IMG/VR virus record: IMGVR_UViG_3300043410_001664
Span: 1 to 51,644 of that record
Direction: 5' to 3' (one strand)
Source of the DNA: a virus
DNA length: 51,644 nucleotides
The translations under genes were made by a program, and so were the position numbers. This document shows positions 679 to 12,033 of this stretch, piece by piece; position 1 is the first letter of the stretch, and each line of letters begins with the position of its first letter. Under the pieces are notes generated by a model. It saw nothing but the letters and a program-made list of their open reading frames with translations. It was not told the DNA's origin and searched no databases.

Positions 679-707
679 TTTTTTCCTTTGTTAGTAGTTA
701 TAGTCTA

Positions 708-736: not shown

Positions 737-737
737 G

Positions 738-743: not shown

Positions 744-749
744 AGAATA

Positions 750-1603: not shown

Positions 1604-1864
1604 TTATTTGTTATCAAAGAGGTCTATTGGTATCCCGTGCGAAAATGCGTAGACTTCTCCCAGGGCTTCGCCCAGCGCCTGCGCCGCTTGTGGATCTTCG
1701 TAATCTATTTCTTCCGCCAAAAAGTCGGGGGTAAAGGAGAAGAACCTATTCAAACCTACCTTATGAGTAATAGATACAAAACCATTCCATAGATTATCTG
1801 AGAATTGCTTATAATCTTTTGGATCTCTTCTTGCATATTCTGCAAAATGGTTTCTTGGACTCAT
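1604..1864 (-). CDS. Hypothetical protein, 86 aa
   Basis: 86 residues, acidic in the second half (AEEIDYEDPQAAQALGEALG), no recognised family, no membrane segment. The start is set by an extended -10 box TGGTATAAT whose last base is 6 bases before the ATG, with no ribosome site, so the mRNA is probably leaderless. It is a single-gene unit lying leftward into the origin-like region. It could be a small regulator or replication accessory by position only. Confidence 0.6.
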   Translation of the reverse strand: MSPRNHFAEYARRDPKDYKQFSDNLWNGFVSITHKVGLNRFFSFTPDFLAEEIDYEDPQAAQALGEALGEVYAFSHGIPIDLFDNK

Positions 1865-1870
1865 ATGAAA

Positions 1871-1876
1871 ATTATA
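1871..1876 (-). promoter_or_regulatory. Extended -10 box, leaderless start
   Basis: TATAAT preceded by TGG on the - strand, 6 bases before the ATG at 1864. Confidence 0.6.
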
Positions 1877-1920
1877 CCACTGTTTGGAGATATAATGTTT
1901 GGAAATTCCAGGAAATTTAC

Positions 1921-1949
1921 TTGACTTTCGTAATGTTGTTTGATATAAT
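1921..1949 (+). promoter_or_regulatory. Orphan rightward promoter opposite the leftward genes
   Basis: TTGACT (1921-1926), 17-base spacer, TATAAT (1944-1949): near-perfect sigma70 promoter pointing right. No + strand gene follows. The predicted transcript begins near 1956, enters a CCCTG/CAGGG hairpin (1965-1977) and then runs antisense to the gene at 1978-2262. A small RNA or a primer transcript is possible. Confidence 0.55.
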
Positions 1950-1958
1950 TGTTTGGCA

Positions 1959-1967
1959 CTCGGGCCC
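1959..1967. repeat. GC-rich box CTCGGGCCC, copy 1 of 8
   Basis: First copy of a GC-rich intergenic box also found at 4869, 6075, 7855, 8895, 10088, 11113 and 11777. Confidence 0.5.
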
Positions 1968-1977
1968 TGAGACAGGG

Positions 1978-2262
1978 TTACCCTTTCCCCGCCTCAAGAA
2001 ACATGTCGTCAATTGATTCATAGTTTAGTTTAGCATCCAAACCAAGTGCTCCGCACAATAGTTCCCAGCCTTCTAAAACATAAACCTCTGCAACCTGTGT
2101 TGACTCAACAATATTTTCTGTGATAGCAAATGCCAATGGCAATGCCAAATCATTATATTCTATAAAATCTTCAAACCCTTCTTGATCCCTATAGTTCAAC
2201 CAAAATGTAGAGAGTATCTCACATTTCCTAGAATAGGGTGTACTGGTTGGTTCTGATGTCAT
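1978..2262 (-). CDS. Conserved-type phage hypothetical, 94 aa
   Basis: 94 residues, acidic and helical. The middle DFIEYNDLALPLAFAI resembles a motif I recall in small actinophage hypothetical proteins, but its function is unknown. The start ATG lies 35 bases inside the upstream gene (2228-2437), the tight overlap typical of this operon. A CCCTG/CAGGG hairpin follows the stop immediately and may mark the transcript end. Confidence 0.65.
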   Translation of the reverse strand: MTSEPTSTPYSRKCEILSTFWLNYRDQEGFEDFIEYNDLALPLAFAITENIVESTQVAEVYVLEGWELLCGALGLDAKLNYESIDDMFLEAGKG

Positions 2263-2437
2263 ATCCCTTATACTCCTCGTTTGCTACCTCAGTTAAGAGA
2301 TTAAGTCTGTTATTTACTACTAAACCGCCTGTTCGTGCCACATAAGTTCCAACTTTTTCAATATCCAATCGCAGGTCTGAAATGAGATTACCAATTCTTA
2401 CCGCTACTTTTTCTTCCTCAGTCATCTTGTGTCGCAT
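2228..2437 (-). CDS. Hypothetical helical protein, 69 aa
   Basis: 69 residues. The segment AVRIGNLISDLRLDIEKVGTYVA looks like one amphipathic helix, followed by a loop and a second helix (NRLNLLTEVANEEY). No known fold or catalytic motif. The ATG has a GGAGA ribosome site 6 bases upstream and a promoter at 2457-2485. First gene of a two-gene unit with 1978-2262. Confidence 0.65.
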   Translation of the reverse strand: MRHKMTEEEKVAVRIGNLISDLRLDIEKVGTYVARTGGLVVNNRLNLLTEVANEEYKGYDIRTNQYTLF

Positions 2438-2456
2438 TATATTCTCCTAACATTCT

Positions 2457-2485
2457 ATTGTATCAAAAAATTATGGGAAGGGCAA
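2457..2485 (-). promoter_or_regulatory. Promoter overlapping a terminator
   Basis: On the - strand TTGCCC (2480-2485), 17-base spacer, TACAAT (2457-2462). The -35 lies inside the downstream arm of the terminator at 2465-2510, so termination and initiation share sequence. Confidence 0.5.
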
Positions 2486-2510
2486 GCCACCCAATTAACC
2501 TGCCCCTCCC
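2465..2510 (-). terminator. Strong intrinsic terminator
   Basis: On the - strand GGGAGGGGCA pairs with TGCCCTTCCC (10 pairs, one G-T) and is followed by ATAATTTTTT. It ends the operon of 2528-4769. Confidence 0.8.
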
Positions 2511-2527
2511 GCCTAGAGAGACCTATT

Positions 2528-2875
2528 CTAGGCCATCACAAGTGGCGCATATGCAGCCACAAATTTATCCCAGTCGACAGATACATTATCTGTGACAGTC
2601 TTATTAACAAAGTCAATGATGACGGTTTGTTCACCTAAATCAAAGTTATCCCCAGACACGGCATAAATACCATATCCAGTTTCACCAAGAATAGAATCTT
2701 GAATAAGATAACTAATCATCATCCTGGTCCCATATGAAGAGTCAGACCAGCGGGGCTTGGCATGCTGCAGGGCACCTGCAATGTCATGCTCCCAATCAGT
2801 CTGGCCCCAATGTGAGTACAAGACTACAGATGAGTCAGTGCCGTCTTTGAATACAAAATTAATACGTGCTCCCAT
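2528..2875 (-). CDS. Conserved phage hypothetical, 115 aa
   Basis: 115 residues. INFVFKDGTDSSVVLYSHWG, then RWSDSSYGTRMMISYLIQD and GYGIYAVSG are blocks I recognise from a small phage protein of unknown function that is common in early regions of large phages. No signal peptide or membrane segment. Last gene of the leftward operon starting at 4769; its ATG overlaps the TAA of 2875-3054 (TAATG), which implies translational coupling. Confidence 0.7.
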   Translation of the reverse strand: MGARINFVFKDGTDSSVVLYSHWGQTDWEHDIAGALQHAKPRWSDSSYGTRMMISYLIQDSILGETGYGIYAVSGDNFDLGEQTVIIDFVNKTVTDNVSVDWDKFVAAYAPLVMA

Positions 2876-3054
2876 TAGGCTTCAATCTCCTCAATCTCAT
2901 CAACCTCAATTGGATACCAATCATAGGCATAGTTCTCAACATCTTCAGTTAATTGGATATTATCCATAATTAGAATTGCTTCATCTTCAGAGTTTGCCTC
3001 AATCTCAAACTCATAGAGGGTTTCTCGCTTAGCGAGGATTTTATACATAGTCAT
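2875..3054 (-). CDS. Small acidic hypothetical, 59 aa
   Basis: 59 residues, beginning MTMYKILAKRETLYEF and ending in a glutamate-rich tail (VDEIEEIEA). The pattern of a short beta start (YKILAKR, LYEFEIEA) then NSEDEAILIM helix resembles small phage proteins of unknown role. AAGGAGA lies 5 bases before the ATG. Stop overlaps the next start. No function assigned. Confidence 0.65.
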   Translation of the reverse strand: MTMYKILAKRETLYEFEIEANSEDEAILIMDNIQLTEDVENYAYDWYPIEVDEIEEIEA

Positions 3055-3063
3055 TTGGTCTCC

Positions 3064-3588
3064 TTAGTAGTGAAAATCAACGGGTACTAGAAATTGTAGC
3101 ATTTTAGTATCAGAACTGTCAAGTCGCTCTTGCAAATAACCTATGTGAGCAGTATACTCCTTAAGGTCATAGTAGTATGATTCAGGACAGTAGTAGTCCA
3201 TTAGCATACCGCCAATCTTTCTAAAATAATATGAATTGAGATCAAAACGCTCATCATTTGGGATACCACTGTTTGAGATATAGTCAACCATATCACTCTT
3301 TAACTTGTCAGTGTTAATCTCTTTTAGGTAGCGGTTCATCTCATCTACACGAGACTTGCGGATACCCGCAATAACCTCATTAAACTTATCAGGGTCAGTT
3401 GCATATGAGATTACAGTATCAGATGTATCTTCATACTGTGATTGAGACCAACGTCCACCACCTACAACGTGCCAATCAGACCATTCAACAAACCTGTCAC
3501 CCTCATCATTAGATAATCTTGATTGAACAAGTTCGAAGGCTTCTTTATTATCCTCTGCCTCAACAGCAAAGTAATGTAATACGTGCAT
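3064..3588 (-). CDS. Phage hypothetical with SDWHVVGGGRWS motif, 174 aa
   Basis: 174 residues. The early block EWSDWHVVGGGRWS is shared, as I recall, with uncharacterised early proteins of other phages; the rest is helical and rich in Tyr and Asp (ISNSGIPNDERFDLNSYYFR, YYCPESYYYDL). No catalytic signature is obvious. It starts at the last base of the upstream stop region (3588 shared) so it is coupled to 3588-4022. Confidence 0.65.
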   Translation of the reverse strand: MHVLHYFAVEAEDNKEAFELVQSRLSNDEGDRFVEWSDWHVVGGGRWSQSQYEDTSDTVISYATDPDKFNEVIAGIRKSRVDEMNRYLKEINTDKLKSDMVDYISNSGIPNDERFDLNSYYFRKIGGMLMDYYCPESYYYDLKEYTAHIGYLQERLDSSDTKMLQFLVPVDFHY

Positions 3589-4022
3589 TATTTGGGTTCC
3601 AATCCTACTAGGGTCATTTCTTCAATTGTAGCGCATTCTGGACATTTTTCCAAATCGTGTTCTTGGAATGAATCTCTAATAGTATTATCAGGGTCTTCTA
3701 ATTCTGCATGGCAATTCTCACAGAAATACCAGTTGTGACCTACAAGAATCTGAATAGTAGTATTATCAGGGAAGGGAACCTCAGTGATAAAGTATCCTAT
3801 TCGATTAACGAATCCCCAGCCACTCCAGATATAAGACCCACCGTCGTCACCATCTCCATACATCCAGATACGGTTCTCAGGTTGCTCCTTAACAAAGGCT
3901 ACCTCATCACCATAGGTCTCAAACATCATTCCGTCAAAGGAGGCATTTGTATCAATATGATTAAGGATTGGTTTATATGTGGCAACCCATTCATCATAGT
4001 CTAATTCAATAAAGTTATCCAT
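3588..4022 (-). CDS. Phage hypothetical with C-terminal zinc-ribbon-like Cys pairs, 144 aa
   Basis: 144 residues. N-terminal two thirds carries TNASFDGMMFETYGDEVAFV and DGDDGGSYIWSGWGFVNRIGYF, blocks I associate with a widespread phage protein of unknown function. The C-terminal part has CENC (about 101-104) and CPEC (about 127-130), a likely zinc-binding pair. Start ATG overlaps the end of 4015-4170 by 8 bases. Role unknown; an early host-interaction protein is only a guess. Confidence 0.65.
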   Translation of the reverse strand: MDNFIELDYDEWVATYKPILNHIDTNASFDGMMFETYGDEVAFVKEQPENRIWMYGDGDDGGSYIWSGWGFVNRIGYFITEVPFPDNTTIQILVGHNWYFCENCHAELEDPDNTIRDSFQEHDLEKCPECATIEEMTLVGLEPK

Positions 4023-4170
4023 TTAGTTTAATCCTAACAATGTCATAGGCATCAATTGCTCCTGCACAGTAGTCATCCATTTCATAGTCACCATCTGCTT
4101 CGAATTGTTCACGAAGTTGGGTTAGTGCAATAATACGTCCATTCACAAAGTCAAGTAGGCTCTCAGTCAT
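4015..4170 (-). CDS. Small acidic hypothetical, 51 aa
   Basis: 51 residues starting MTESLLDFVNG. A longer reading from 4233 lies wholly in another gene, whereas the ATG at 4170 has GAGG 8 bases upstream and sits in a short overlap with the stop of 4163-4402, so 4170 is chosen. One helix-turn-helix-like pair of helices (RIIALTQLREQFEADGDYEM, YCAGAIDAYDIVRIKL), no recognised family. Confidence 0.6.
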   Translation of the reverse strand: MTESLLDFVNGRIIALTQLREQFEADGDYEMDDYCAGAIDAYDIVRIKLNG

Positions 4171-4402
4171 GAAGTGATTCCTCATACTCATATGGGTCAA
4201 AGTCTCTTGACTTACCCTCGTAGATTTCATCATATATTAATTGATATGCGGCTTCAAGTCCACAAGCAAAGCCTTCTGCTTCCTTGCGCTCAAATCCATC
4301 CATTGCATCGTCGTATCCTGATTCGATTTCAGCCTTGTGGATAATAACATATTCATCCCAAGCCTCATCAATCATTTGCTGTAGTTTTTCTTTTGCGGTC
4401 AT
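4163..4402 (-). CDS. Acidic helical hypothetical, 79 aa
   Basis: 79 residues, strongly acidic, mostly helix (MTAKEKLQQMIDEAWDEYV) with an acidic aromatic tail (RDFDPYEYEESLHD). No family recognised. Such small acidic early proteins often bind host enzymes, but nothing in the sequence shows a target. Spaced 3 bases from 4406-4621. Confidence 0.6.
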   Translation of the reverse strand: MTAKEKLQQMIDEAWDEYVIIHKAEIESGYDDAMDGFERKEAEGFACGLEAAYQLIYDEIYEGKSRDFDPYEYEESLHD

Positions 4403-4405
4403 ATA

Positions 4406-4621
4406 TTAATTATAGGGGTTGGTGTTGATTTTGACAAGTTCTACGGGTGTGACCTTGCTCACATCTGTAATGATAGGGGCATTGCCATCTGATACCCCAA
4501 GCCAAGTAAGATTAGCAGATCCACAGGAGCACCACCCTCTCCAGTTGTCTAGATTTTTCAGGGTAGTGATTTCCATAAGGGCATCACAATCAGTACAAAG
4601 ATAATCATATCTATTCCACAT
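4406..4621 (-). CDS. Zinc-ribbon protein, 71 aa
   Basis: 71 residues with CTDC (about 9-12) and CSCG (about 31-34), spaced like a zinc ribbon of the FmdB/rubredoxin-like type; YDYLCTDCDALMEI reads like the opening of FmdB-family proteins. Binding of zinc is inferred. Its ATG overlaps the TAG of 4611-4769 in another frame, indicating coupling. Confidence 0.65.
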   Translation of the reverse strand: MWNRYDYLCTDCDALMEITTLKNLDNWRGWCSCGSANLTWLGVSDGNAPIITDVSKVTPVELVKINTNPYN

Positions 4622-4769
4622 AAGACACCAGGAGTTTCATTGTATTGTGGATATTGCAATCGCAGTCTCCACCATTCATATTTTCCATGAATTCAATATG
4701 AGAATAATTATCCTCATAGATAGCAGTTAGTAGTTCATCTACTGTATAGGGTTTGTATGTTTGGGTCAT
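4611..4769 (-). CDS. Small hypothetical, 52 aa, first gene of operon
   Basis: 52 residues (MTQTYKPYTVDELLTAIYED..., ending NTMKLLVSYVE) with a CDC near the middle. It is the first gene of the leftward operon that runs to 2528. The ATG lies 6 bases after the TAAAAT -10 box and has no ribosome site, so it is probably leaderless. Short but supported by start placement, the overlap with the next gene and the shared promoter. Confidence 0.6.
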   Translation of the reverse strand: MTQTYKPYTVDELLTAIYEDNYSHIEFMENMNGGDCDCNIHNTMKLLVSYVE

Positions 4770-4775
4770 ATATTA

Positions 4776-4804
4776 ATTTTACAACCCCAGGAAATAAAAG
4801 TCAA
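4776..4804 (-). promoter_or_regulatory. Promoter of the 4769 to 2528 operon
   Basis: On the - strand TTGACT (4799-4804), 17-base spacer, TAAAAT (4776-4781). Predicted start coincides with the ATG at 4769. A CRP-like palindrome is centred about 73.5 bases upstream. Confidence 0.75.
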
Positions 4805-4834
4805 GTACGTAATGGGATTTGGGGAAAAATGTTA

Positions 4835-4850
4835 TGTGATCTTAATCACG
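4835..4850. promoter_or_regulatory. CRP/GlxR-like palindrome P1
   Basis: TGTGATCTTAATCACG, matching TGTGA-N6-TCACA except for the last base. Centre lies about -73.5 from the predicted start at 4769. Confidence 0.6.
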
Positions 4851-4868
4851 TCCCCGAATAAATGTTAA

Positions 4869-4879
4869 CTCGGGGCCCC
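4869..4879. repeat. GC-rich box CTCGGGGCCCC, copy 2 of 8
   Basis: Perfect copy of the intergenic GC box, 18 bases from palindrome P1. Confidence 0.5.
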
Positions 4880-4900
4880 ATTTACGCTTACGATCTAAAT

Positions 4901-4932
4901 AAAAAATTGAGCAGTTTTAAATCATGCTCAGG
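4901..4932 (-). terminator. Terminator of the DUF932 gene (hairpin repeat A)
   Basis: On the - strand TGAGCA/TGCTCA hairpin followed by TTTTTT, just after the stop at 4941. It is also one of four copies of the CCTGAGCA...AAACTGCTCA hairpin repeat. Confidence 0.7.
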
Positions 4933-4940
4933 ATTTTTTA

Positions 4941-5939
4941 TTATGCGAGTTGCATAACGTTTTGTACAACTTTTAGCAAACGATTTTTTTCTGCATTAAT
5001 AACAGGGTCAAAACCACTTGCACTTGCAAGGATAGATTCGTTAGAACCACCACGAGCAGAACGATACCAATCTAGGCGCTCAGTTAAAGCATTGAAAGCG
5101 CCCCAAGCAGAGCCAGCAATCATGCCGTTAAATTCGCCTGTGTAAATATCATTGATTACATCAATTTTATTTTCCCACTTCTTGATTGCACCCTTAGAAT
5201 CCTTTTCAGGCTTTGGATAAGCAGCAAGAATAATATCGTTAAATTGCTTAGCATTGACTTCTTTCTCAATCATAGCCTTAGCCATTAAATCGAATTCGTC
5301 CATATAAGCATTAGCAAGACCAAGAGCCTCACGAGCAACAGCAATCTTACCTTCTGCTGTCTGTGTGTGACGAATCTTGAAAGATTGCTTGACGCCATTC
5401 TTTTTCTTAGTACGATTAAGTGCAAGATTAAGAGTGTTAGCGCATACAACACGAACAGGTGTGATACTTGCTTGAATTGCGATAGAACCATCGTGTGATG
5501 TGTTGATGAGCAAATAAGTTTTCACAACATCGTTCACGCCATTAGGGTCTAGAACTGTCTCACGCTCAAGAGCAAGAGAACCAAATACAACACGACCACC
5601 ACGCAATGAGCCAGCAGTCTCCCAGCGACCTCCGCCGTCTAGGATATTATCACCAAATGAAAATAAATCTTCATTCTGTAATGGAACATAACGCTGTCCA
5701 ACAACGCCCAAAACATCTTTTTGTTCATTGTTAAATGGATTGGTGCGGATAACATATTGATAAGACTTATCAGAAGATAAGTGTGACGGGATTTCTAAAT
5801 CTTCCAATCGAACATTCCAATTAGATAGATTAGCAGAATCTAACATTTCTGCGGTTGTTTTTTCTTCTGTGAAAACTGTGCCAAGTCCGTGCCAAGCAGG
5901 TTCACGTAGAGAAGAAAAGGATTCGATTTCGTGTGCCAT
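4941..5939 (-). CDS. DUF932 family protein (phage/plasmid-like)
   Basis: 332 residues, the usual length of the DUF932 / phage-plasmid-like family. Recognised from its N-terminus (REPAWHGLGTVFTEEKTTAEML), the GVVGQRYVPLQNEDLFSF block, ETAGSLRGGRVVFGSLAL, and TPVRVVCANTLNLAL. The family is common on phages and plasmids; its biochemical role is unknown, though early expression and high abundance are typical. It is a monocistronic unit with its own promoter (5971-5999), two upstream CRP-like palindromes, a GAGGC ribosome site and a terminator at 4901-4932. Confidence 0.85.
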   Translation of the reverse strand: MAHEIESFSSLREPAWHGLGTVFTEEKTTAEMLDSANLSNWNVRLEDLEIPSHLSSDKSYQYVIRTNPFNNEQKDVLGVVGQRYVPLQNEDLFSFGDNILDGGGRWETAGSLRGGRVVFGSLALERETVLDPNGVNDVVKTYLLINTSHDGSIAIQASITPVRVVCANTLNLALNRTKKKNGVKQSFKIRHTQTAEGKIAVAREALGLANAYMDEFDLMAKAMIEKEVNAKQFNDIILAAYPKPEKDSKGAIKKWENKIDVINDIYTGEFNGMIAGSAWGAFNALTERLDWYRSARGGSNESILASASGFDPVINAEKNRLLKVVQNVMQLA

Positions 5940-5970
5940 ATTGTTGCCTCTTTCTGTAGGGTATTAATTA

Positions 5971-5999
5971 AGTTTAACAGATAGCACTGTCAAAGTCAA
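5971..5999 (-). promoter_or_regulatory. Promoter of the DUF932 gene
   Basis: On the - strand TTGACT (5994-5999), 17-base spacer, TAAACT (5971-5976). Two palindromes lie upstream, centred near -83.5 and -100.5. Confidence 0.75.
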
Positions 6000-6039
6000 A
6001 TAGCCTTAATAGGAATGGGGTAAATCGGACATTTCTTAA

Positions 6040-6072
6040 GGTGATCTTAAACACATTGTGATATTGATCACA
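6040..6072. promoter_or_regulatory. Tandem CRP/GlxR-like palindromes P2a and P2b
   Basis: GGTGATCTTAAACACA (6040-6055) and the perfect TGTGATATTGATCACA (6057-6072), one base apart. The GC-rich box follows at 6075-6083 (GCCCCCGAG). Confidence 0.65.
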
Positions 6073-6074
6073 GC

Positions 6075-6083
6075 GCCCCCGAG
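6075..6083. repeat. GC-rich box, copy 3 of 8
   Basis: GCCCCCGAG, three bases from palindrome P2b. Confidence 0.45.
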
Positions 6084-6107
6084 CAAATTTTGCAGGGGCA
6101 GAAAGAA

Positions 6108-6134
6108 TGAGCAGTTTACGTGGCCGTGCTCAGG
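6108..6134 (-). repeat. Hairpin repeat B
   Basis: TGAGCAGTTT...TGCTCAGG inverted repeat, same as copies at 4908, 6668 and 7237. No T-run follows in the - direction. A second hairpin TTAGTAG/CTACTAA (6171-6188) lies between it and the stop at 6191. Confidence 0.45.
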
Positions 6135-6190
6135 GCCCTTATCCAGTTTAAAGACATGTGACAGGTCTATTAGTAGCCCCCTACTAAATA

Positions 6191-6592
6191 TTAACACTCA
6201 TTGGCATCATACAATTCATATGAATCGATTACAACGTCACCATGATTGATGTCAACATATGCTTCTGAAAGAATCTCTTCGAGGTCAAAACCGTCTTGGT
6301 CCTCACGAGACACTTGAATGGTACCGCTGAAAGAAATTGTTGCAGTGAATGCAACTTCCTTGGTTGGATTATAATCGATGATTTCGCACAGTGTTGTTAG
6401 AATATCTTCTGCATCGCTACCGTTATCATATGCATCATTAATTAAATTAATAATCTGTGACTGTACACGACCGTTTTCACTCTTCCAGTAATCGCAATTT
6501 TGATGAGTTGTTAGCGCTGCATTCTGTCGAGAGATGATATCCTGTAGTTCTGCTATTTTGTTGTCTAGATATGTTTCTGTTGCTGTCTCCAT
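6191..6592 (-). CDS. Hypothetical protein with N-terminal coiled coil, 133 aa
   Basis: 133 residues. Residues 1-30 (TETYLDNKIAELQDIISRQN) look like a short coiled coil; the C-terminal half has a beta-rich block AFTATISFSGTIQVSRED followed by an acidic tail. The beta block with an acidic end resembles small phage proteins whose function is unknown. Own promoter at 6625-6654; the ribosome site GAAAG...GGGGCC is weak. No palindrome accompanies this promoter, unlike its neighbours. Confidence 0.6.
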   Translation of the reverse strand: METATETYLDNKIAELQDIISRQNAALTTHQNCDYWKSENGRVQSQIINLINDAYDNGSDAEDILTTLCEIIDYNPTKEVAFTATISFSGTIQVSREDQDGFDLEEILSEAYVDINHGDVVIDSYELYDANEC

Positions 6593-6624
6593 GGGGGCCC
6601 GCTTTCTATTAGTTTGTTTACTTA

Positions 6625-6654
6625 AGTATACTAGTGGCCACTGACAATTGTCAA
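6625..6654 (-). promoter_or_regulatory. Promoter of the 6592 gene
   Basis: On the - strand TTGACA (6649-6654), 18-base spacer, TATACT (6625-6630). No CRP-like site upstream. Confidence 0.7.
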
Positions 6655-6748
6655 GGACCCTTATGGGGAGCAGTTTGGCGTCTTACTCAGGACGATCATC
6701 TCAGGCATACCCACGCAGTATAGCCTGGGGCTTAGCAGAGATGAAAAG
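6655..6748. other. Structured intergenic segment with hairpin repeat C
   Basis: Hairpin repeat C (GAGCAGTTT to TACTCAGG, 6668-6691; the stem change G-C to G-T keeps pairing on the - strand RNA) is followed by nested inverted repeats: outer CATCTC/GAGATG and inner CAGGC/GCCTG between 6697 and 6743. No open frame. Could be a small structured RNA or a long 3' end. Confidence 0.4.
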
Positions 6749-6793
6749 TTGGGGGAGAGGTTTGAACTAGGTATTGCTACCTCTCTCCCCCAA
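6749..6793 (-). terminator. Strong intrinsic terminator
   Basis: On the - strand TTGGGGGAGAG pairs perfectly with CTCTCCCCCAA (11 pairs) around a partly paired loop, followed by CTTTTC. Ends the transcript of 7548-6800. Confidence 0.75.
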
Positions 6794-6799
6794 TTCTAT

Positions 6800-7201
6800 T
6801 TAGAGATACTGAGCGATAGTCTTGAAAGTTGTAGCATTAACAACTTCCTCGTCCGTCATTTTGAGAATACGAATTGCGTTCTCAATTTCATTAACCTCAT
6901 AGCGACCAAGTTCCTGCTCTAGTTCCATACTTGGCTTCTCAGGTAGTGTAATTGCACCTGCTGGAAGGCAGATATTTACATTAACTTCGTTACGATAGTT
7001 TTCGTGTGCAGAAAGTTCTGCCTTTGAGATTTGCTTGAATACTAGGTCTGCGACTTCTTTAGCCCAAGCCTTTTCTACCTTTGCGTATTCCTTACGCTTC
7101 TTCTCGTTGTTAGTGATAGCCTTTGCGCTATCTGATAGTTTTGTTTCAAGTGCCTTGATTACCTTAGCAGTTGATACCTTTACTGAAATTGCTCTTGCCA
7201 T
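6800..7201 (-). CDS. Hypothetical helical protein, 133 aa
   Basis: 133 residues. The N-terminal half is lysine-rich helix (KALETKLSDSAKAITNNEKK) and the C-terminal half is acidic helix (MELEQELGRYEVNEIENAIR) with a central CLPAGAITLPEKPS turn. Looks like an antiparallel coiled-coil protein; no family recognised. AAAGGAA ribosome site. No promoter of its own is clear, so it probably shares the transcript from 7453. Confidence 0.65.
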   Translation of the reverse strand: MARAISVKVSTAKVIKALETKLSDSAKAITNNEKKRKEYAKVEKAWAKEVADLVFKQISKAELSAHENYRNEVNVNICLPAGAITLPEKPSMELEQELGRYEVNEIENAIRILKMTDEEVVNATTFKTIAQYL

Positions 7202-7236
7202 TGGGTTTTCCTTTTCTGTTAGTTGGGGGTTTGAGT

Positions 7237-7263
7237 TGAGCAGTTTTAATTGACTTGCTCAGG
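7237..7263 (-). repeat. Hairpin repeat D
   Basis: TGAGCAGTTT...TGCTCAGG between two cotranscribed genes (7286 stop and 7201 start). It could act as a partial terminator or processing site. Confidence 0.45.
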
Positions 7264-7285
7264 TCATTTCCTGATTAGGAATTAT

Positions 7286-7453
7286 TTACTTTGCTGTCCA
7301 AGTTGTCCAGCGAGGTGTGCCATTTACATCTAACTTAACACGAACACTTGTTCCGTCTGTGTTTGGCTTGATTTCTGTAATTGTGCCTGTAACCTTTGAC
7401 TTCTGTGAAGTGTAGAGGTCGCCCACCTTGTATGTTGCTGTTGCTACTGCCAT
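7286..7453 (-). CDS. Small beta-rich protein, paralogue of 7548-7718, 55 aa
   Basis: 55 residues (MAVATATYKVGDLYTSQKSK...). The ATG at 7453 is chosen because it has an AAGGAGA ribosome site and a good promoter just upstream; a longer frame extends through that promoter. Aligns with its neighbour 7548-7718 over Y(K/Q)(V/I)GDL(Y/F)T...KxxVTGxI. The beta-hairpin pattern is like small KOW/SH3-type folds, which is inference. Confidence 0.65.
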   Translation of the reverse strand: MAVATATYKVGDLYTSQKSKVTGTITEIKPNTDGTSVRVKLDVNGTPRWTTWTAK

Positions 7454-7487
7454 TTTATTTCTCCTTAGTAGTTGGTTGATATATTTA

Positions 7488-7516
7488 ATTTTAGCATTTT
7501 TGAGATTTCTAGTCAA
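7488..7516 (-). promoter_or_regulatory. Promoter of 7453
   Basis: On the - strand TTGACT (7511-7516), 17-base spacer, TAAAAT (7488-7493). Confidence 0.75.
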
Positions 7517-7547
7517 ATACATTTCTGAGATTTCTCACATTTTGAGA

Positions 7548-7718
7548 TTACTTAGATGTCTTGACCATAGCAAGACGGCGTGAGCCATTTGCCAAAACCA
7601 AAGAAACTCTGGTAACCTTATTAGACATTGGTGTAAAACCTGCGATACGACCTGTAACGCCTGTCTTAGATGTAGTGAACAAATCACCAATCTGATATGT
7701 GTAGCCTGAGATAGTCAT
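7548..7718 (-). CDS. Small beta-rich protein, paralogue of 7286-7453, 56 aa
   Basis: 56 residues (MTISGYTYQIGDLFTTSKTG..., ending RRLAMVKTSK). Shares the YQIGDLF and KTGVTGRI blocks with the neighbouring 55-residue protein, so the two arose by tandem duplication and then diverged. GGAAG ribosome site; promoter at 7751-7779 with a CRP-like palindrome at about -63.5. Function unknown. Confidence 0.65.
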   Translation of the reverse strand: MTISGYTYQIGDLFTTSKTGVTGRIAGFTPMSNKVTRVSLVLANGSRRLAMVKTSK

Positions 7719-7750
7719 TGGGGACTTCCTTTCTGTTTGGGTATAATATA

Positions 7751-7779
7751 ATTATAGACGAAAAATCTCATAAATACAA
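7751..7779 (-). promoter_or_regulatory. Promoter of 7718
   Basis: On the - strand TTGTAT (7774-7779), 17-base spacer, TATAAT (7751-7756). Confidence 0.7.
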
Positions 7780-7799
7780 ATCTAAACGGCATTTTACGG

Positions 7800-7815
7800 T
7801 GTGATAAACCCCACA
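7800..7815. promoter_or_regulatory. CRP/GlxR-like palindrome P3
   Basis: TGTGATAAACCCCACA, one imperfect half-site. Centre about -63.5 from the start predicted for 7718. Confidence 0.5.
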
Positions 7816-7854
7816 TCTTAACAGCGTGTTCTTAACTTGACAAAATCATTTCTT

Positions 7855-7864
7855 GGCCCCCGAG
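7855..7864. repeat. GC-rich box, copy 4 of 8
   Basis: GGCCCCCGAG in the 220-base gap between 7718 and 7942. The rest of that gap (7865-7941) is AT-rich with a weak AATAAA/TTTATT inverted repeat that may end the GP88 transcript. Confidence 0.45.
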
Positions 7865-7941
7865 CCCACCAGATCGCAGGGGATTTATTGCAACAAGAAT
7901 AAATAAAATAACCAAAGTAAAATAAACAGAAACGTTTTCAT

Positions 7942-8658
7942 TTATTTTTTACTAGCACTAAACACAATATCACTTTTAGAGTATACACACAGTGAGCACG
8001 AAACACAAGCGCTACCGTTAGTAGAAATAAGTGGAATTGCTTTTTTATTCTCAGGGCACTTAGCGCCTACTTTACCAATCATCGCTTTCATATCTGCTTG
8101 ACCCATTGCGAAAGTATCTGCAAGGTATGCAAGACGAACACCATGAGTTTGATTAATTTCTACGGCAACATCCTTATTATCTTTATCAGTAGAAAAATAA
8201 AGAGATAGGTTTTTTATTCCCTTAAGCATTTCTGCAGCGAATGGCACACGAGTGTATACCCAGAATTGTACATCAGGATTAACACGAATAGTTTCATGCC
8301 ATGCTAACACGTAGGTTTCATTAAAGAAATCTCCGTCCCAGTGAATGCGGAAGAGTTTATCTGCATTACGCTTATCACAATCTTTTTTGAAATCAGTAAT
8401 CATCTCAGTTAATAGAGAGACCATTGTTTCATAGTCTGCGTCTTTTAATTGGTCCCAATTACTTATAAGGACATTGCGAACACCCTTATAAATCTTTTCT
8501 AGTTTCCCCGCATAGCAGACTTTAGCGCATGTGGGAGTTTGATTAGGGCATGAGTAAGACTTACCAGCAGGCAGTCCGAAAGTGTTGGCAATTGTTGGGG
8601 TTTTTCCATTTGGGGAGACGGCATTAGTTACTTTCCTATCTTTTGAGCGAATTAGCAT
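7942..8658 (-). CDS. GP88 family protein
   Basis: 238 residues. Recognised as the mycobacteriophage D29 gene product 88 family from NTFGLPAGKSYSCPNQTPTC, AKVCYAGKLEKIYKGVR, RIHWDGDFFNETYVLAW and the FWVYTR block. Cysteines at 37, 44 and 48, plus a C-terminal set (CVSCSLC near 218-224), could bind a metal or cluster; this is inferred from spacing. The family is frequent in actinophages and its biochemistry is not known to me. Start has GAAAGG upstream; the promoter lies at 8683-8711, inside the end of the preceding small gene. Confidence 0.85.
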   Translation of the reverse strand: MLIRSKDRKVTNAVSPNGKTPTIANTFGLPAGKSYSCPNQTPTCAKVCYAGKLEKIYKGVRNVLISNWDQLKDADYETMVSLLTEMITDFKKDCDKRNADKLFRIHWDGDFFNETYVLAWHETIRVNPDVQFWVYTRVPFAAEMLKGIKNLSLYFSTDKDNKDVAVEINQTHGVRLAYLADTFAMGQADMKAMIGKVGAKCPENKKAIPLISTNGSACVSCSLCVYSKSDIVFSASKK

Positions 8659-8668
8659 TGGGGCCTTT

Positions 8669-8812
8669 CTATTGTTTATCTAAGTCTAACATTTTTCTAG
8701 TGGTTTGTCTAGTCCGTTTGTATTTCTTTTTATTGGGAATTGGGGAGGCAGCATTAGATCTACGCAACTCCATTAGTTTGCGTAATTCTTCTTTGCTTTT
8801 TCTTAACCTCAT
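8669..8812 (-). CDS. Very basic small protein, 47 aa
   Basis: 47 residues (MRLRKSKEELRKLMELRRSN...), about a third Lys plus Arg, with one amphipathic helix and a basic tail; could bind nucleic acid. The ATG is 6 bases after a TAATAT -10 with a perfect TTGACA 17 bases further up and no ribosome site, hence leaderless. Its end overlaps the promoter of the GP88 gene. Confidence 0.55.
   Translation of the reverse strand: MRLRKSKEELRKLMELRRSNAASPIPNKKKYKRTRQTTRKMLDLDKQ
8683..8711 (-). promoter_or_regulatory. Promoter of the GP88 gene
   Basis: On the - strand TAGACA (8706-8711), 17-base spacer, TAGACT (8683-8688), lying inside the 3' end of the 47-residue gene. Confidence 0.5.
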
Positions 8813-8818
8813 ATAATA

Positions 8819-8847
8819 ATATTAACATAAATATTAAATAATGTCAA
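8819..8847 (-). promoter_or_regulatory. Promoter, leaderless start of 8812
   Basis: On the - strand TTGACA (8842-8847), 17-base spacer, TAATAT (8819-8824), then 6 bases to the ATG. Confidence 0.7.
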
Positions 8848-8894
8848 AATCAGGGAGATTCTTCTTAAATCATAACAAAACGGACAAAGCGGAC

Positions 8895-8904
8895 CTCGGG
8901 CCCC
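8895..8904. repeat. GC-rich box, copy 5 of 8, with GGACA pair
   Basis: CTCGGGCCCC preceded by GGACA AAGC GGACC (8882-8894), a 9-base-period tandem. Confidence 0.45.
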
Positions 8905-8910
8905 AATCAG

Positions 8911-9150
8911 TTATTCTTCTTCTTCAATTAAAACATACCAATTAAAACGTGCATCATCGCTAACTTCAATTATTCCATCTTCATCATATTCATCAAGATA
9001 GTTAATTACATAACCATCTTTTGTTCCTTGCACTTGAAGAACTTGAACAATTGTATTATCTTCTAACTCAATAAAATCGTCAATCTCTAACTGATCAACG
9101 TTTAGGACATCAACGTGTTGTAGTTTCATACTTAACATTGTAGCAGCCAT
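8911..9150 (-). CDS. Acidic hypothetical, 79 aa
   Basis: 79 residues (MAATMLSMKLQHVDVLNVDQ...). Acidic and beta-rich with FIELEDNTIVQVLQVQGTKDGYVINYLDE. An ATG 15 bases further up is possible, but the ATG at 9150 has GAGG at a proper distance and follows the upstream stop by one base. Last gene of the operon 9953-8911. A small beta-barrel is likely; function unknown. Confidence 0.6.
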   Translation of the reverse strand: MAATMLSMKLQHVDVLNVDQLEIDDFIELEDNTIVQVLQVQGTKDGYVINYLDEYDEDGIIEVSDDARFNWYVLIEEEE

Positions 9151-9151
9151 T

Positions 9152-9442
9152 TTATTCATCCTCATCTACTGGATTAATAAACCAAGCAAGGTGGTGCTGT
9201 TCAATAATAGCCCACGCTGGTGCTTCTGTTGCACCCTTATAAGTAATCTGAAAATCACCAACCATAGGCATAGCAATCATTCGATTATAGTCCTCGTCAT
9301 AGGATGCGTCAATTGCTTCAATACAAGGGGCAACCATTTCTGCGGGGACTGGAGGATAGTGATTATTTTTAAGGTGATACAAAATCTGTGTTTCAAGGTC
9401 AAGGACACTATCTGCCAAACCAATTGCTGTAACTGAACCCAT
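9152..9442 (-). CDS. Hypothetical, 96 aa
   Basis: 96 residues. Helical N-terminus (GLADSVLDLETQILYHLKNN) and an acidic C-terminus (NPVDEDE). No recognised motif. A strong AGGAGGT ribosome site lies inside the end of the upstream gene, 8 bases before the ATG, so it can be translated efficiently and independently. Third gene of the operon. Confidence 0.65.
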   Translation of the reverse strand: MGSVTAIGLADSVLDLETQILYHLKNNHYPPVPAEMVAPCIEAIDASYDEDYNRMIAMPMVGDFQITYKGATEAPAWAIIEQHHLAWFINPVDEDE

Positions 9443-9444
9443 TA

Positions 9445-9660
9445 TTACTTACCTCCTACATTTCCATTAGAATAAAATATCTTAGTGTGCATCTTACCTG
9501 ACGGCTCAGACAAGTTAATTGTGCGGTATTCCTTAGCATCGCCATAGTCAATAAACTTATTAAATACATCTACTGCATCTAGGGCATTATCATAGCGACC
9601 AATCCATTCAGGGCTGGTAGCGTTATCGTTAGTGCAAGTTACTGCGTATAGGTATTCCAT
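9445..9660 (-). CDS. Hypothetical, 71 aa
   Basis: 71 residues (MEYLYAVTCTNDNATSPEWI...). Alternating beta strands and one helix (YDNALDAVDVFNKFIDYG), ending NGNVGGK. No recognised family. Its ATG shares a base with the stop of the upstream gene, indicating coupling. Confidence 0.65.
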   Translation of the reverse strand: MEYLYAVTCTNDNATSPEWIGRYDNALDAVDVFNKFIDYGDAKEYRTINLSEPSGKMHTKIFYSNGNVGGK

Positions 9661-9953
9661 TAGTTAGCCTCCTGTGTAGTCCAAAGTTTATCTATCTCAG
9701 CATAGTCTATTTCTGCGTTATTTGCAAGGTAGCAATTCATACAATATAGGGCGTCCCAAGATACCTTATTCTCATTACAACCAATACAAGTATCTGGAAG
9801 TGGCTCTGCATATTCCTCTACTGATAAGTGATTAGGGTTGCATTCGCACCATTCAATATCAAAGTCCTCGCCATTAGACCAACCCTCATAGCCAATACCA
9901 TCACACATTGTGCAATTAGCAATATCAGCAAGTGCATTTTTCATTTTGCTCAT
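9660..9953 (-). CDS. Cys-rich zinc-ribbon-like protein, 97 aa
   Basis: 97 residues. Two Cys-rich knuckles: CTMCDGIGYEGW (about 14-25) with WCEC (about 35-38), and CIGC (56-59) with CMNC (71-74). The spacing suggests two zinc sites of a DnaJ-type or zinc-ribbon kind. First gene of a four-gene leftward operon with GAAAGGA ribosome site and a palindrome-associated promoter. No catalytic domain is seen. Confidence 0.65.
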   Translation of the reverse strand: MSKMKNALADIANCTMCDGIGYEGWSNGEDFDIEWCECNPNHLSVEEYAEPLPDTCIGCNENKVSWDALYCMNCYLANNAEIDYAEIDKLWTTQEAN

Positions 9954-9980
9954 TTTATGTCCTTTCTTTATATAAATAAT

Positions 9981-10008
9981 CTTATACTATCGTGGCGACA
10001 AACACAAA
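9981..10008 (-). promoter_or_regulatory. Promoter of the 9953 operon
   Basis: On the - strand TTTGTG (10003-10008), 16-base spacer, TATAAG (9981-9986). ACGGCGTGTCG (10009-10019) abuts the -35. Confidence 0.6.
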
Positions 10009-10039
10009 CGACACGCCGTAAATTACAACAACGTAATTC

Positions 10040-10055
10040 TGTGATCTTAAACACA
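10040..10055. promoter_or_regulatory. CRP/GlxR-like palindrome P4
   Basis: TGTGATCTTAAACACA, centre about -73.5 from the start predicted for the 9953 operon. Confidence 0.6.
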
Positions 10056-10087
10056 CTTACGTAAAACGGACATTTGGTACAAAACGC

Positions 10088-10097
10088 CTCGGGCCCC
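10088..10097. repeat. GC-rich box, copy 6 of 8
   Basis: CTCGGGCCCC. It is followed by GTTGAAAGTTAAACTA, which recurs beside copy 7 at 11128, each time just past the stop of a tiny leftward gene. Confidence 0.5.
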
Positions 10098-10114
10098 TTT
10101 AGTTGAAAGTTAAA

Positions 10115-10213
10115 CTATTCTTTTTGTTTTCTTGATTTGTATTCAAGTGTGATCCCATAAATAATTGGAGCCCACAACATTAACTGAATTAGTGAAGTGA
10201 TTAGTCTATTCAT
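10115..10213 (-). CDS. Tiny membrane protein, 32 aa
   Basis: 32 residues (MNRLITSLIQLMLWAPIIYG...). A hydrophobic segment of about 18 residues is followed by a basic tail (EYKSRKQKE), the look of a single-pass membrane peptide with the tail inside. Start overlaps the stop of 10206-10382 by 8 bases (translational coupling). Too short for a family call; a host membrane or superinfection effect is conceivable. Confidence 0.5.
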   Translation of the reverse strand: MNRLITSLIQLMLWAPIIYGITLEYKSRKQKE

Positions 10214-10382
10214 TGTCATTGTTTACCGCCTCAATAAATTTATCTGTTACGAAACGTGGATTATCTTTTTCAAACATAAACGCAAAGTCATCAACTAAAT
10301 CTGTAAAATCTTTTTCGTCAATAGTTGTTTTGTATTTGTTTAGAATTCTAGCAGTTTCTACATAGTCTTTTCTCGTCATCAT
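10206..10382 (-). CDS. Acidic helical hypothetical, 58 aa
   Basis: 58 residues starting MMTRKDYVETARILNKY. The ATG at 10382 overlaps the stop of the upstream gene (TAATG) and has AGGAG upstream; a longer frame lies wholly within that gene. Helical with DEKDFTDLVDDFAFMF and a C-terminal NNDNE. The order of helices resembles small phage hypotheticals, function unknown. Confidence 0.6.
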   Translation of the reverse strand: MMTRKDYVETARILNKYKTTIDEKDFTDLVDDFAFMFEKDNPRFVTDKFIEAVNNDNE

Positions 10383-10561
10383 TACTTGGCAACTCCTCTC
10401 AGAGTGCCTGTAACGCCTAGAGCGTCGCAAGCAATTTTTACAGAGATACCAACAGGCAACTGCTGAGGGTATTGTGAAATAAACTGAGCAACTGCTCCCT
10501 TGCTAGGCAAGTTAATTGTTGAAACTGAACCATTGAAGGTTTCGATTTTTACTTTATACAT
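10382..10561 (-). CDS. Small protein, paralogue of 12356-12529, 59 aa
   Basis: 59 residues (MYKVKIETFNGSVSTINLPS..., VKIACDALGVTGTLRGVAK). It aligns along its length with the 57-residue + strand protein at 12356-12529: KVxI at the start, IxLxSK, FIS in the middle, and VKI(T/A)CDxxGxxGxLxG at the end. Probably a small alpha/beta fold. Coupled to 10206-10382. No function known. Confidence 0.65.
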   Translation of the reverse strand: MYKVKIETFNGSVSTINLPSKGAVAQFISQYPQQLPVGISVKIACDALGVTGTLRGVAK

Positions 10562-10575
10562 TAAGTTTTCCTTTC

Positions 10576-10782
10576 TTAGAGATTTTCTGTTTTCACTGCG
10601 ATAGTGCGATAAGTTGAGCGAATTCCGCTATTAGGCATTACCTCAACAAGATAACTTTCGCAACCCTCATACCAAACTGCGTGAGGGTGCTTTTCAGCAG
10701 AGATAATTTCTCCCTGAAGTGTGCGTGAGTGATAGTTAGTTCCTACAAGTAGGCTTTCGATTGAATATACATTTGCAGACAT
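10576..10782 (-). CDS. Actinophage-type hypothetical, 68 aa
   Basis: 68 residues. YSIESLLVGTNYHSRTLQGE, then ISAEKHPHAVWYEGCESYLV and STYRTIAVKT match a small protein that I recall from several actinophages; function unknown. AAAGGAGAA ribosome site. First gene of the leftward operon to 10115, with promoter at 10818-10846. Confidence 0.65.
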   Translation of the reverse strand: MSANVYSIESLLVGTNYHSRTLQGEIISAEKHPHAVWYEGCESYLVEVMPNSGIRSTYRTIAVKTENL

Positions 10783-10817
10783 TAAGTTCTCCTTTCAAGA
10801 GACTTTCTAATAATTTA

Positions 10818-10846
10818 ATTATTTCATATTTAATTGTAAAAAGCAA
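10818..10846 (-). promoter_or_regulatory. Promoter of the 10782 operon
   Basis: On the - strand TTGCTT (10841-10846), 17-base spacer, AATAAT (10818-10823). GGACA TTTA GGACA (+ strand, 10857-10870) lies between it and palindrome P5. Confidence 0.55.
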
Positions 10847-10877
10847 ATCCAAAAACGGACATTTAGGACATTTTGAA

Positions 10878-10893
10878 TGTGATAAATATCACA
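10878..10893. promoter_or_regulatory. CRP/GlxR-like palindrome P5
   Basis: TGTGATAAATATCACA, a perfect TGTGA-N6-TCACA. Centre about -74.5 from the start predicted for 10782. It overlaps the stop codon of 10889-11011. Confidence 0.7.
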
Positions 10894-11011
10894 AGGCGCC
10901 CTCTTGGAAGAGAGCAATCTCAAAGTCCAAAAGTTCGTCTTTTGTAGCGTCTTGGAGATTAACCCACTCCACGCCGTTTTCGTCAATTCTAGCAAATTCA
11001 ATGTAACCCAT
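10889..11011 (-). CDS. Tiny hypothetical, 40 aa
   Basis: 40 residues (MGYIEFARIDENGVEWVNLQ...), one beta hairpin then an acidic helix (TKDELLDFEIALFQEG). AAAGGTGG ribosome site 8 bases upstream and a near-consensus promoter at 11046-11074 support it as a real gene, despite its size. Its stop codon lies in palindrome P5. Confidence 0.6.
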   Translation of the reverse strand: MGYIEFARIDENGVEWVNLQDATKDELLDFEIALFQEGAL

Positions 11012-11045
11012 TTTGAGCCACCTTTCTTTAGTTTCTATGTATGTA

Positions 11046-11074
11046 ATACTAGCAGATAAATCTCAAAAAGTCAA
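11046..11074 (-). promoter_or_regulatory. Strong promoter of 11011
   Basis: On the - strand TTGACT (11069-11074), 17-base spacer, TAGTAT (11046-11051). The same -35/-10 pair and closely similar spacer are used by the rightward promoter at 11849-11877. ACGGCGTGTCG lies 2 bases upstream (11077-11087). Confidence 0.8.
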
Positions 11075-11095
11075 GACGACACGCCGTAACTTAAA

Positions 11096-11111
11096 TGTGT
11101 TTTACATCACA
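11096..11111. promoter_or_regulatory. CRP/GlxR-like palindrome P6
   Basis: TGTGTTTTACATCACA, centre about -64.5 from the start predicted for 11011. GC-rich box copy 7 (GGGCCCCGAGG, 11113-11123) follows directly. Confidence 0.6.
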
Positions 11112-11141
11112 TGGGCCCCGAGGATTTTGTTGAAAGTTAAA

Positions 11142-11243
11142 CTACTTTATTTTTTCTAAAAGTTTTTCTAATTCTTTTAGTTGTTTTAAATTAAGATGAT
11201 CGAGTTGAATTGCATCTTCAAAATTAAAAATATCTTCATTCAT
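11142..11243 (-). CDS. Tiny helical protein, 33 aa
   Basis: 33 residues (MNEDIFNFEDAIQLDHLNLK..., KELEKLLEKIK), a single leucine-rich amphipathic helix with a heptad pattern. Start overlaps the stop of 11240-11413 (ATGA). Could be a small coiled-coil modulator; no family match. Confidence 0.5.
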   Translation of the reverse strand: MNEDIFNFEDAIQLDHLNLKQLKELEKLLEKIK

Positions 11244-11413
11244 TTATTTAACTCCTCAAAAAGTTCTTTACATTTATTTGGATTATCCCACCAAGGAAAA
11301 CCCTCGTGATATTGTGCGGGGGCTAAAACAACCTGACCGCAAGGGCAGAGATTCATTAACCCTGCAGGGTAGTCATTAACTGTAGCCATAGGCTCAAATA
11401 TTCTATTAGTCAT
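11240..11413 (-). CDS. Small Cys-containing hypothetical, 57 aa
   Basis: 57 residues (MTNRIFEPMATVNDYPAGLM...). A CPCG knuckle (23-26) and a lone Cys near the end (KCKE) suggest a half zinc ribbon. FPWWDNPNKC is distinctive but not recognised. Coupled on both sides by overlapping stop/start codons (TAATG with 11413-11592). Confidence 0.6.
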   Translation of the reverse strand: MTNRIFEPMATVNDYPAGLMNLCPCGQVVLAPAQYHEGFPWWDNPNKCKELFEELNK

Positions 11414-11592
11414 TATTTAACCTCCTTAGAGATACACTCTATGCAATAGCATTGAGGATTACGCTTAGGGTCAAATAAGAATTTAATTAACTCTTTACGA
11501 GTATACATATCTAAGCCATATGATGATTTAACACCACCATTATGGTACTCGTGTACGATAGTAGAGAATAAAGTTTCATTTAGTGTAGTCAT
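11413..11592 (-). CDS. Small hypothetical with CYCIEC, 59 aa
   Basis: 59 residues starting MTTLNETLFSTIVHEYHNGG. The ATG at 11592 has AAAGGTGG upstream; a longer frame extends into the promoter region. Ends with CYCIEC, a possible metal-binding knuckle. First gene of the leftward early unit next to the divergent control region. Its 5' leader can fold into TTCTATATATAGAA and TTGAGAA/TTCTCAA hairpins (about 11620-11650). Confidence 0.6.
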   Translation of the reverse strand: MTTLNETLFSTIVHEYHNGGVKSSYGLDMYTRKELIKFLFDPKRNPQCYCIECISKEVK

Positions 11593-11711
11593 TTTAGACC
11601 ACCTTTCTTTTAAGTGATTGAGAACCTTTCTCAACCTTCTATATATAGAAGTCTAACATAGACCACTGACAAATACAGGGGTACAAAACGGACATATGGG
11701 ATATATGGGAT

Positions 11712-11776
11712 TGTGATGTACATCATGTGGATAACTTAAGCGTAAATACGTAGTGTGATGTACGTCATGTGGATAA
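11712..11776. repeat. Direct repeat: palindrome plus inverted DnaA box
   Basis: GTGATGTACATCATGTGGATAAC and its near-identical copy 42 bases later (one C/G change). Each unit joins a TGTGATGTAC palindrome (P7, P8) to TGTGGATAA, the reverse of the DnaA box (11726-11734, 11768-11776). Confidence 0.7.
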
Positions 11777-11811
11777 CCCCCGAGCCAATGTCCGAATTGT
11801 CCTATATGTCC

Positions 11812-11827
11812 TGTGATATAAATCACA
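11812..11827. promoter_or_regulatory. CRP/GlxR-like palindrome P9
   Basis: TGTGATATAAATCACA, perfect half-sites, centre about -64.5 from the rightward start. CGACACGCCGT (11830-11840) follows. Confidence 0.7.
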
Positions 11828-11848
11828 TGCGACACGCCGTGTTAGGAC

Positions 11849-11877
11849 TTGACTTTTTGGGTTTTGTGTGCTAGTAT
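11849..11877 (+). promoter_or_regulatory. Strong rightward early promoter
   Basis: TTGACT (11849-11854), 17-base spacer, TAGTAT (11872-11877). Drives the operon 12034-12529. Confidence 0.8.
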
Positions 11878-11914
11878 TCTACTATAGAAAATTAAATAAA
11901 GGACAAAAGGGCTA

Positions 11915-11967
11915 ATGAGCCTAAGCAAATAAATGTGACTAGTATCACAGTGAGCCTTAGCAAATAA
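11915..11967 (+). other. Two mini-cistrons flanking palindrome P10
   Basis: ATGAGCCTAAGCAAATAA (11915-11932) and GTGAGCCTTAGCAAATAA (11950-11967) both read (M)SLSK-stop; they differ only in the start base and a silent third base. The perfect palindrome TGTGACTAGTATCACA (11934-11949) fills the gap. All lie in the leader of the 12034 operon. Confidence 0.5.
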
Positions 11968-12033
11968 GTAGCCAAAATGTCAGTCCCCTATGGTAGGATA
12001 GTCCTATCAGTTAGAAAAAGAAAGGTAGTCAAA

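Follow-up and report, generated by a model that had tools for sequence, protein, structure and literature searches.

CRP/GlxR-type palindromes stand in helical register with early promoters in a clade of putative freshwater actinophages

Introduction

Phage early promoters are usually thought to be strong and activator-free, and the class I and class II geometries of CRP-type activation in Actinobacteria are borrowed from Escherichia coli. Here, we analyzed a genome fragment of 51.6 kb from an uncultivated virus (IMG/VR record IMGVR_UViG_3300043410_001664; 51,644 nt, hereafter the window), in which most early transcription units are preceded by palindromes of the form TGTGA-N6-TCACA. At the lac promoter of E. 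coli, the class I position of CRP is −61.5 (PMC6728893). In Actinobacteria, GlxR of Corynebacterium glutamicum has the consensus TGTGANNTANNTCACA and acts mostly as an activator (PMC4254451), while the sites of Mycobacterium tuberculosis CRP (Rv3676) cluster at −60 to −40, those of activated genes being located at −44.5, −54.5, −57.5, and −59.5 (PMC4117774). Comparison of the viral palindromes with these systems makes it quite probable that a host protein of the GlxR/CRP type binds them and would activate the early promoters in a class I-like manner, from one face of the helix.

Results

Palindromes upstream of early promoters

A first-pass annotation of the window had listed eleven palindromes, all of which are present where it placed them. 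They match TGTGA-N6-TCACA exactly at 6057, 10878, 11812, and 11934, with one mismatch at 4835, 7800, 10040, and 11096, and with two at 6040, 11712, and 11754. An additional exact palindrome, absent from that list, starts at 4448, inside the end of the open reading frame (ORF) 4406-4621. Spacing was scored as d, counted in bases from the centre of the palindrome to where the −10 hexamer begins; the promoter pattern was kept fixed and every search spanned 25–110. Centres in the window derive from an automatic promoter score, with the −10 hexamer taken as −12 to −7. The sites are as follows:

4448..4463, leftward promoter: exact palindrome TGTGACCTTGCTCACA; −35 TTGTCA, −10 TATAAT (4414-4409), d=41, centre about −53.5
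4835..4850, leftward promoter: palindrome with 1 mismatch; −35 TTGACT (4804-4799), −10 TAAAAT (4781-4776), d=61, centre −73.5
6040..6055, DUF932-gene promoter: palindrome with 2 mismatches, downstream half of a tandem; −35 TTGACT (5999-5994), −10 TAAACT (5976-5971), d=71, centre −83.5
6057..6072, same promoter: exact palindrome, upstream half of the tandem; d=88
7524..7539: doubtful site TCTGAGATTTCTCACA with 1 mismatch; out of phase, at d=38 to TTGACT/TAAAAT
7800..7815, leftward promoter: palindrome with 1 mismatch; −35 TTGTAT, −10 TATAAT (7756-7751), d=51, centre −63.5
10040..10055, leftward: palindrome with 1 mismatch; −10 TAAGAT (9984-9979), d=63, centre −75.5; alternative TAGTAT, d=58, −70.5
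10878..10893, leftward: exact palindrome; weak, second-best −10 AATAAT at 10823, d=62, centre −74.5; alternative d=68
11096..11111, leftward: palindrome with 1 mismatch; −35 TTGACT (11074-11069), −10 TAGTAT (11051-11046), d=52, centre −64.5
11712..11727, leftward: degenerate palindrome with 2 mismatches, abutting a DnaA-like box; −10 TAGACT (11655-11650), d=64, centre −76.5
11754..11769: second degenerate palindrome (2 mismatches) with a DnaA-like box; no in-phase promoter
11812..11827, plus strand: exact palindrome; rightward −35 TTGACT (11849-11854), −10 TAGTAT (11872-11877), d=52, centre −64.5
11934..11949, plus strand: exact palindrome; weak rightward −10 TAGGAT (11994), d=52, centre −64.5 (weak)

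Counted over the whole window at up to two mismatches, the motif is not enriched (25 copies against 35 expected), a figure that is uninformative as a test. The motif search with background statistics that the annotation had proposed places the good intergenic sites far above shuffled DNA: 2000 dinucleotide shuffles of the intergenic DNA of positions 1–12033 predict 0.003 exact palindromes, where 4 are found, with 9 observed against 0.10 expected at up to one mismatch and 12 against 1.6 at up to two.

Relatives were gathered with a single early gene as query:

4941..5939, minus strand: DUF932 gene (phrog_1221)

Searching IMG/VR with it returned 80 related viral contigs of up to 116 kb, 1.36 Mb in total (hereafter the clade loci). 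They contain 373 exact copies of TGTGA-N6-TCACA, as compared with 0–13 copies of each of 29 other half-site permutations and 0–9 for spacers other than 6 bp; TGTGA/TCACA is indeed their most frequent 5-bp inverted repeat. Among the long clade records listed, most sites are confined to one early block of ~5–12 kb. Since the clade logo, TGTGATnTAnATCACA, equals the GlxR consensus, inner TA included, we assign the motif to the CRP/GlxR type. Such sites lie upstream of the −35 at most early units.

Helical phasing of the sites

The d values of the window (41, 51, 52, 52, 52, 61, 63, 64, 68, and 71) are by themselves modestly phased (n=10, R=0.66, p ~0.009), and the automatic scoring reproduced the centres annotated earlier (~−63.5/−64.5, −73.5 to −76, and −83.5). 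The conserved phasing that was to be sought in related phages proved overwhelming in the clade loci. There, 433 palindrome–promoter pairs grouped into 82 clusters of homologous promoters, with d values that peak at 41, 52, 62, and 72 (±1), i.e., at centres −53.5, −64.5, −74.5, and −84.5, and leave empty valleys at 43–45, 47–49, 54–57, 65–68, and 75–78. The Rayleigh test gave R=0.82 for 69 cluster modes (p <1e-4 by simulation); it uses the full sets, whereas the group phases in one summary omit off-phase values. Furthermore, orthologous promoters differ by whole turns, with common values such as 62/52/70 or 73/72/62 within clusters. Because d differences within ortholog clusters peak at 1–2 and at 10, the comparison indicates that the palindrome–promoter spacing is under selection. 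What the DNA itself shows is thus the presence of specific sites restricted to the early region, together with their conserved phasing.

A tandem with d of ~72 and ~89, its sites 17 bp apart, recurs in many orthologous promoters; at the DUF932 promoters the site at d=88–91 is out of phase with the neighbour 17 bp away and stays outside the phasing scheme. Tandem sites of this kind, and the capacity of CRP-family proteins for repression, are what speaks for regarding the palindromes as operators through which a protein of host or phage would keep early genes repressed, e.g., so as to delay expression at high cyclic AMP (cAMP). We nonetheless hold this to be decidedly improbable, as the sites are centred at ~−53 to −84, upstream of the −35 and not over the −10 or the start, and occlusion needs neither strict phasing to the polymerase nor whole-turn steps between orthologs. 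In M. tuberculosis, too, activation is associated with upstream CRP sites and repression with sites at the start (PMC4117774). A DnaA- or repressor-operator reading of the palindromes was likewise set aside on phasing.

The same register beyond the clade

We scanned the whole viral collection for palindrome plus promoter with the gap left free, and obtained more than 119 loci with the real pattern against 35 for a reversed-half-site control. In contigs lacking detectable ORF relation to the clade, d peaks at 41, with smaller groups near 50–52 and 62–63. Many of the palindrome-bearing phages unrelated to the clade carry WhiB. The contigs of a first WhiB test had been chosen largely for d=41 or 52, and the result therefore bears on actinophage identity, not on phasing following WhiB. 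An unselected check on WhiB-motif loci unrelated to the clade yielded 11 non-redundant sites, 9 of which were in phase; the phase windows cover ~27% of positions. A looser pattern retrieved 17 matches from 395 actinobacterial chromosomes, as compared with 1 for the control, at d values of 39, 39, 40, 40, 41, 41, 41, 42, 50, 51, 51, 51, 55, 55, 62, 63, and 68; 14 of the 17 thus lie at 39–42, 50–51, or 62–63. The readable downstream genes encode transporter solute-binding proteins (2), a helix-turn-helix (HTH) protein (1), and ribosomal protein S12 (rpsL; 1). As it is shared by unrelated phages and chromosomes, the register appears to belong to actinobacterial promoters at large, beyond this phage.

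These results bear on whether the phasing could be an artefact of common descent among the contigs combined with flexible promoter calling. Many contigs are indeed closely related, −10 calling is permissive, and the window alone reaches p ~0.009. However, the peaks hold when each cluster of homologous promoters contributes a single value, promoters were sought over the same range (25–110) throughout, the reversed-half-site control falls well short of the real pattern across the whole collection, and the register recurs both in WhiB-motif sites of unrelated phages and in actinobacterial chromosomes. The cluster, chromosome, and unrelated-phage results already contradict an artefact, which we regard as extremely improbable.

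Relatives and probable host

In the window, a leftward early block with the DUF932 gene is followed by rightward genes for ribonucleotide reductase (RNR) and portal. The same order is found in the family Stanwilliamsviridae, in the Streptomyces phages Jay2Jay, Yaboi, Riptide, and Coruscant, with 48% identity in the portal and 55–57% in DUF932. Megablast of the window against phages and the DUF932 search of genome contigs gave no match, and the phage RNR was uninformative as a query for the host. Three long clade records encode WhiB, seen among 14 control genomes only in C. glutamicum; on this basis, the clade, one of freshwater (lake) viruses, is assigned to the actinophages. The closest cellular matches of a secreted domain encoded at 181-678 are Candidatus Planktophila and other freshwater actinobacterial metagenome-assembled genomes, so the host is probably a Nanopelagicales bacterium, habitat and G+C content (GC) being the other grounds for naming this order.

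The cultivated Planktophila phages LanE43-AprE7 (E7) and F5 (OX376640, OX376641) differ from the clade in having 39-kb genomes and no protein relation that we could find. Each carries 2 exact palindromes where permuted half-sites predict 0.1, and three of these four (E7 2477, F5 22684, and F5 22761) sit in divergent intergenic regions. A d=41 promoter is present in L152, a contig of the viral collection that matches E7 at 74% identity across half of an 8-kb segment.

As a separate observation on the gene content of the window, 20614-22089 and 30703-32079 encode two virion-like proteins. From their translations only, the N-terminal part appears PASTA or fibronectin-type, and the C-terminal domains, near-identical in both, look Hint/intein-like (CI.G.T.IR ... 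HPILVK ... IIAGD.VTHNK).

Accessory boxes and other elements

Two kinds of short boxes lie between palindrome and −35:

11830..11840, plus strand: accessory box CGACACGCCGT; further copies at 11077-11087 and 10009-10019
6026..6032, minus strand: accessory box ATGTCCG (extended ATGTCCGAWTT); further copies at 10856-10862 and 11689-11695

The former has 140 exact copies on both strands of the clade loci, where its reversed sequence has none. In the d=52 class, CGACACGCCGTG occupies this place in either orientation (window 10009, 11077, and 11830), and ATGTCCGAWTTGTCC is often found there in the d=62 class (6026, 10856, and 11689). Both also occur in contigs unrelated to the clade (L130 and L161; L119, L120, L137, and L165). 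CRP is probably not the sole determinant of promoter output. Many d=72 clade promoters additionally show a conserved WTGTCAG just 3' of the −35, e.g., TTGCATTTGTCAG.

Other repeats were noted in passing. Five perfect DnaA boxes, TTATCCACA, fall within 160 bp of intergenic DNA at 1088-1247, a possible replication origin that would depend on DnaA of the host; the boxes at 11726 and 11768 are additional copies, each directly adjoining a degenerate palindrome. The sequence TTATCCACAGG has 199 copies in the clade loci. A recurrent hairpin, GAGCAGTTT...GCTCAGG, lies at 4909, 6109, 6668, and 7238, at the ends of leftward units, in one case with a minus-strand T tract, and the clade loci contain 166 copies of GAGCA-N11-TGCTC. 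These hairpins are probably a terminator family.

The protein predicted to bind

A GlxR/M. tuberculosis CRP orthologue is encoded in 4 of 5 genomes of the presumed host order, Nanopelagicales, with an identical recognition helix, SRETVNKALADFA. In 20 clade records of up to 116 kb, which are possibly incomplete, neither a cyclic nucleotide monophosphate (cNMP)-binding domain nor HTH_Crp scored above the cut-off. A CRP-type regulator encoded by the phage was thus looked for and not seen in these records (0/20).

Alternatively, a phage regulator of an unrecognised family could bind the palindromes and activate early or middle genes. Such a protein would fit the lack of site enrichment in candidate host chromosomes, and the accessory boxes suggest further dedicated factors. 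It is nevertheless unlikely: besides the lack of a CRP-type gene in the 20 clade records, the motif matches the GlxR consensus down to the inner TA, the same register is found in actinobacterial chromosomes and in phages with no detectable protein relation to the clade, and any factor that serves the earliest promoters should already be present in the host. The annotation had proposed that a host CRP/GlxR or a phage regulator activates most early units. The host protein is favoured over a phage factor, whereas we infer activation over repression, as we do the identity of the binding protein, the polymerase contact, and cAMP dependence.

Several observations weigh against binding and activation by a host GlxR/CRP-type protein. 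Nanopelagicales chromosomes are not enriched in the palindrome, with 8 exact sites in 61 genomes (~0.1 per genome) and counts at up to one mismatch close to the control, and the composite palindrome–promoter is absent from the 296 Nanopelagicales genomes scanned. The host order itself hangs on that one small secreted domain plus habitat and GC. The Stanwilliamsviridae, the nearest isolated relatives, lack palindrome enrichment in their first 25 kb, and E7 and F5 have only their 2 exact sites each, none with a convincing in-phase −10. In actinobacteria at large, the palindrome is enriched. Two readings offer themselves: a host from elsewhere among the actinobacteria, or a regulator that works in Nanopelagicales through few, weak chromosomal sites while phages use near-consensus ones. 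As the Streptomyces relatives are devoid of the sites, the freshwater clade either acquired the palindrome arrangement or kept it while it was lost elsewhere.

Discussion

We propose that a host actinobacterial dimer of the GlxR/M. tuberculosis CRP type would sit on the palindromes upstream of the −35, on one helix face, at any of four positions (d=41, 52, 62, or 72) that are whole turns of ~10.4 bp apart. From there, it would most likely contact the C-terminal domain of the RNA polymerase alpha subunit (alphaCTD), whose flexible tether could absorb the one-turn differences, and this contact would recruit sigma-A polymerase to the phage early promoters.

A freshwater actinophage clade thus appears to place a global regulator of its host in control of most early units, in an arrangement that unrelated actinophages share. 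If true, infection would be tied to the carbon or cAMP state of the host, as a general phage strategy. Dozens of independent promoters would also provide a spacing rule for the contact between CRP-type activators and polymerase in Actinobacteria, medically and industrially important ones included. A wider proposal, plausible but in our judgement slightly short of evenly balanced, is that actinobacterial GlxR/CRP acts from its own register (~−53.5/−64.5/−74.5/−84.5) and has been recruited by several unrelated actinophage lineages as an early-gene activator, linking early phage transcription to host cAMP-CRP; in Nanopelagicales, this code would be nearly phage-only.

With C. glutamicum GlxR and Rv3676, the predicted system shares the consensus and, in the candidate-host orthologue, the identical recognition helix. 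The positions of activated sites in M. tuberculosis are in keeping with a d of 41. The known targets of both regulators are host genes, whereas here they are phage early promoters, and we found no phage target of GlxR/CRP in the searchable literature.

With class I activation by E. coli CRP at lac, it has in common TGTGA-N6-TCACA sites upstream of the −35 at integral-turn spacing. It differs in the phylum of the host and in the spacing itself, d=41/52/62/72 instead of the 49 that we take for lac by counting along its well-known sequence. The clade has no peak at d=29, within a search starting from 25, where class II geometry (centre −41.5, over the −35) would place one. The class I geometry attributed earlier to these promoters therefore holds for the helical phasing of sites upstream of, and clear of, the −35, and not for the E. 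coli register of −61.5 (d=49), from which the phage register is 3–4 bp (~100 degrees) off, with a phase of ~10 (mod 10.4) against 7.4 for lac. Because actinobacterial chromosomes present the same shifted register, this geometry is best described, on present comparisons, as a class I-like, actinobacterial variant.

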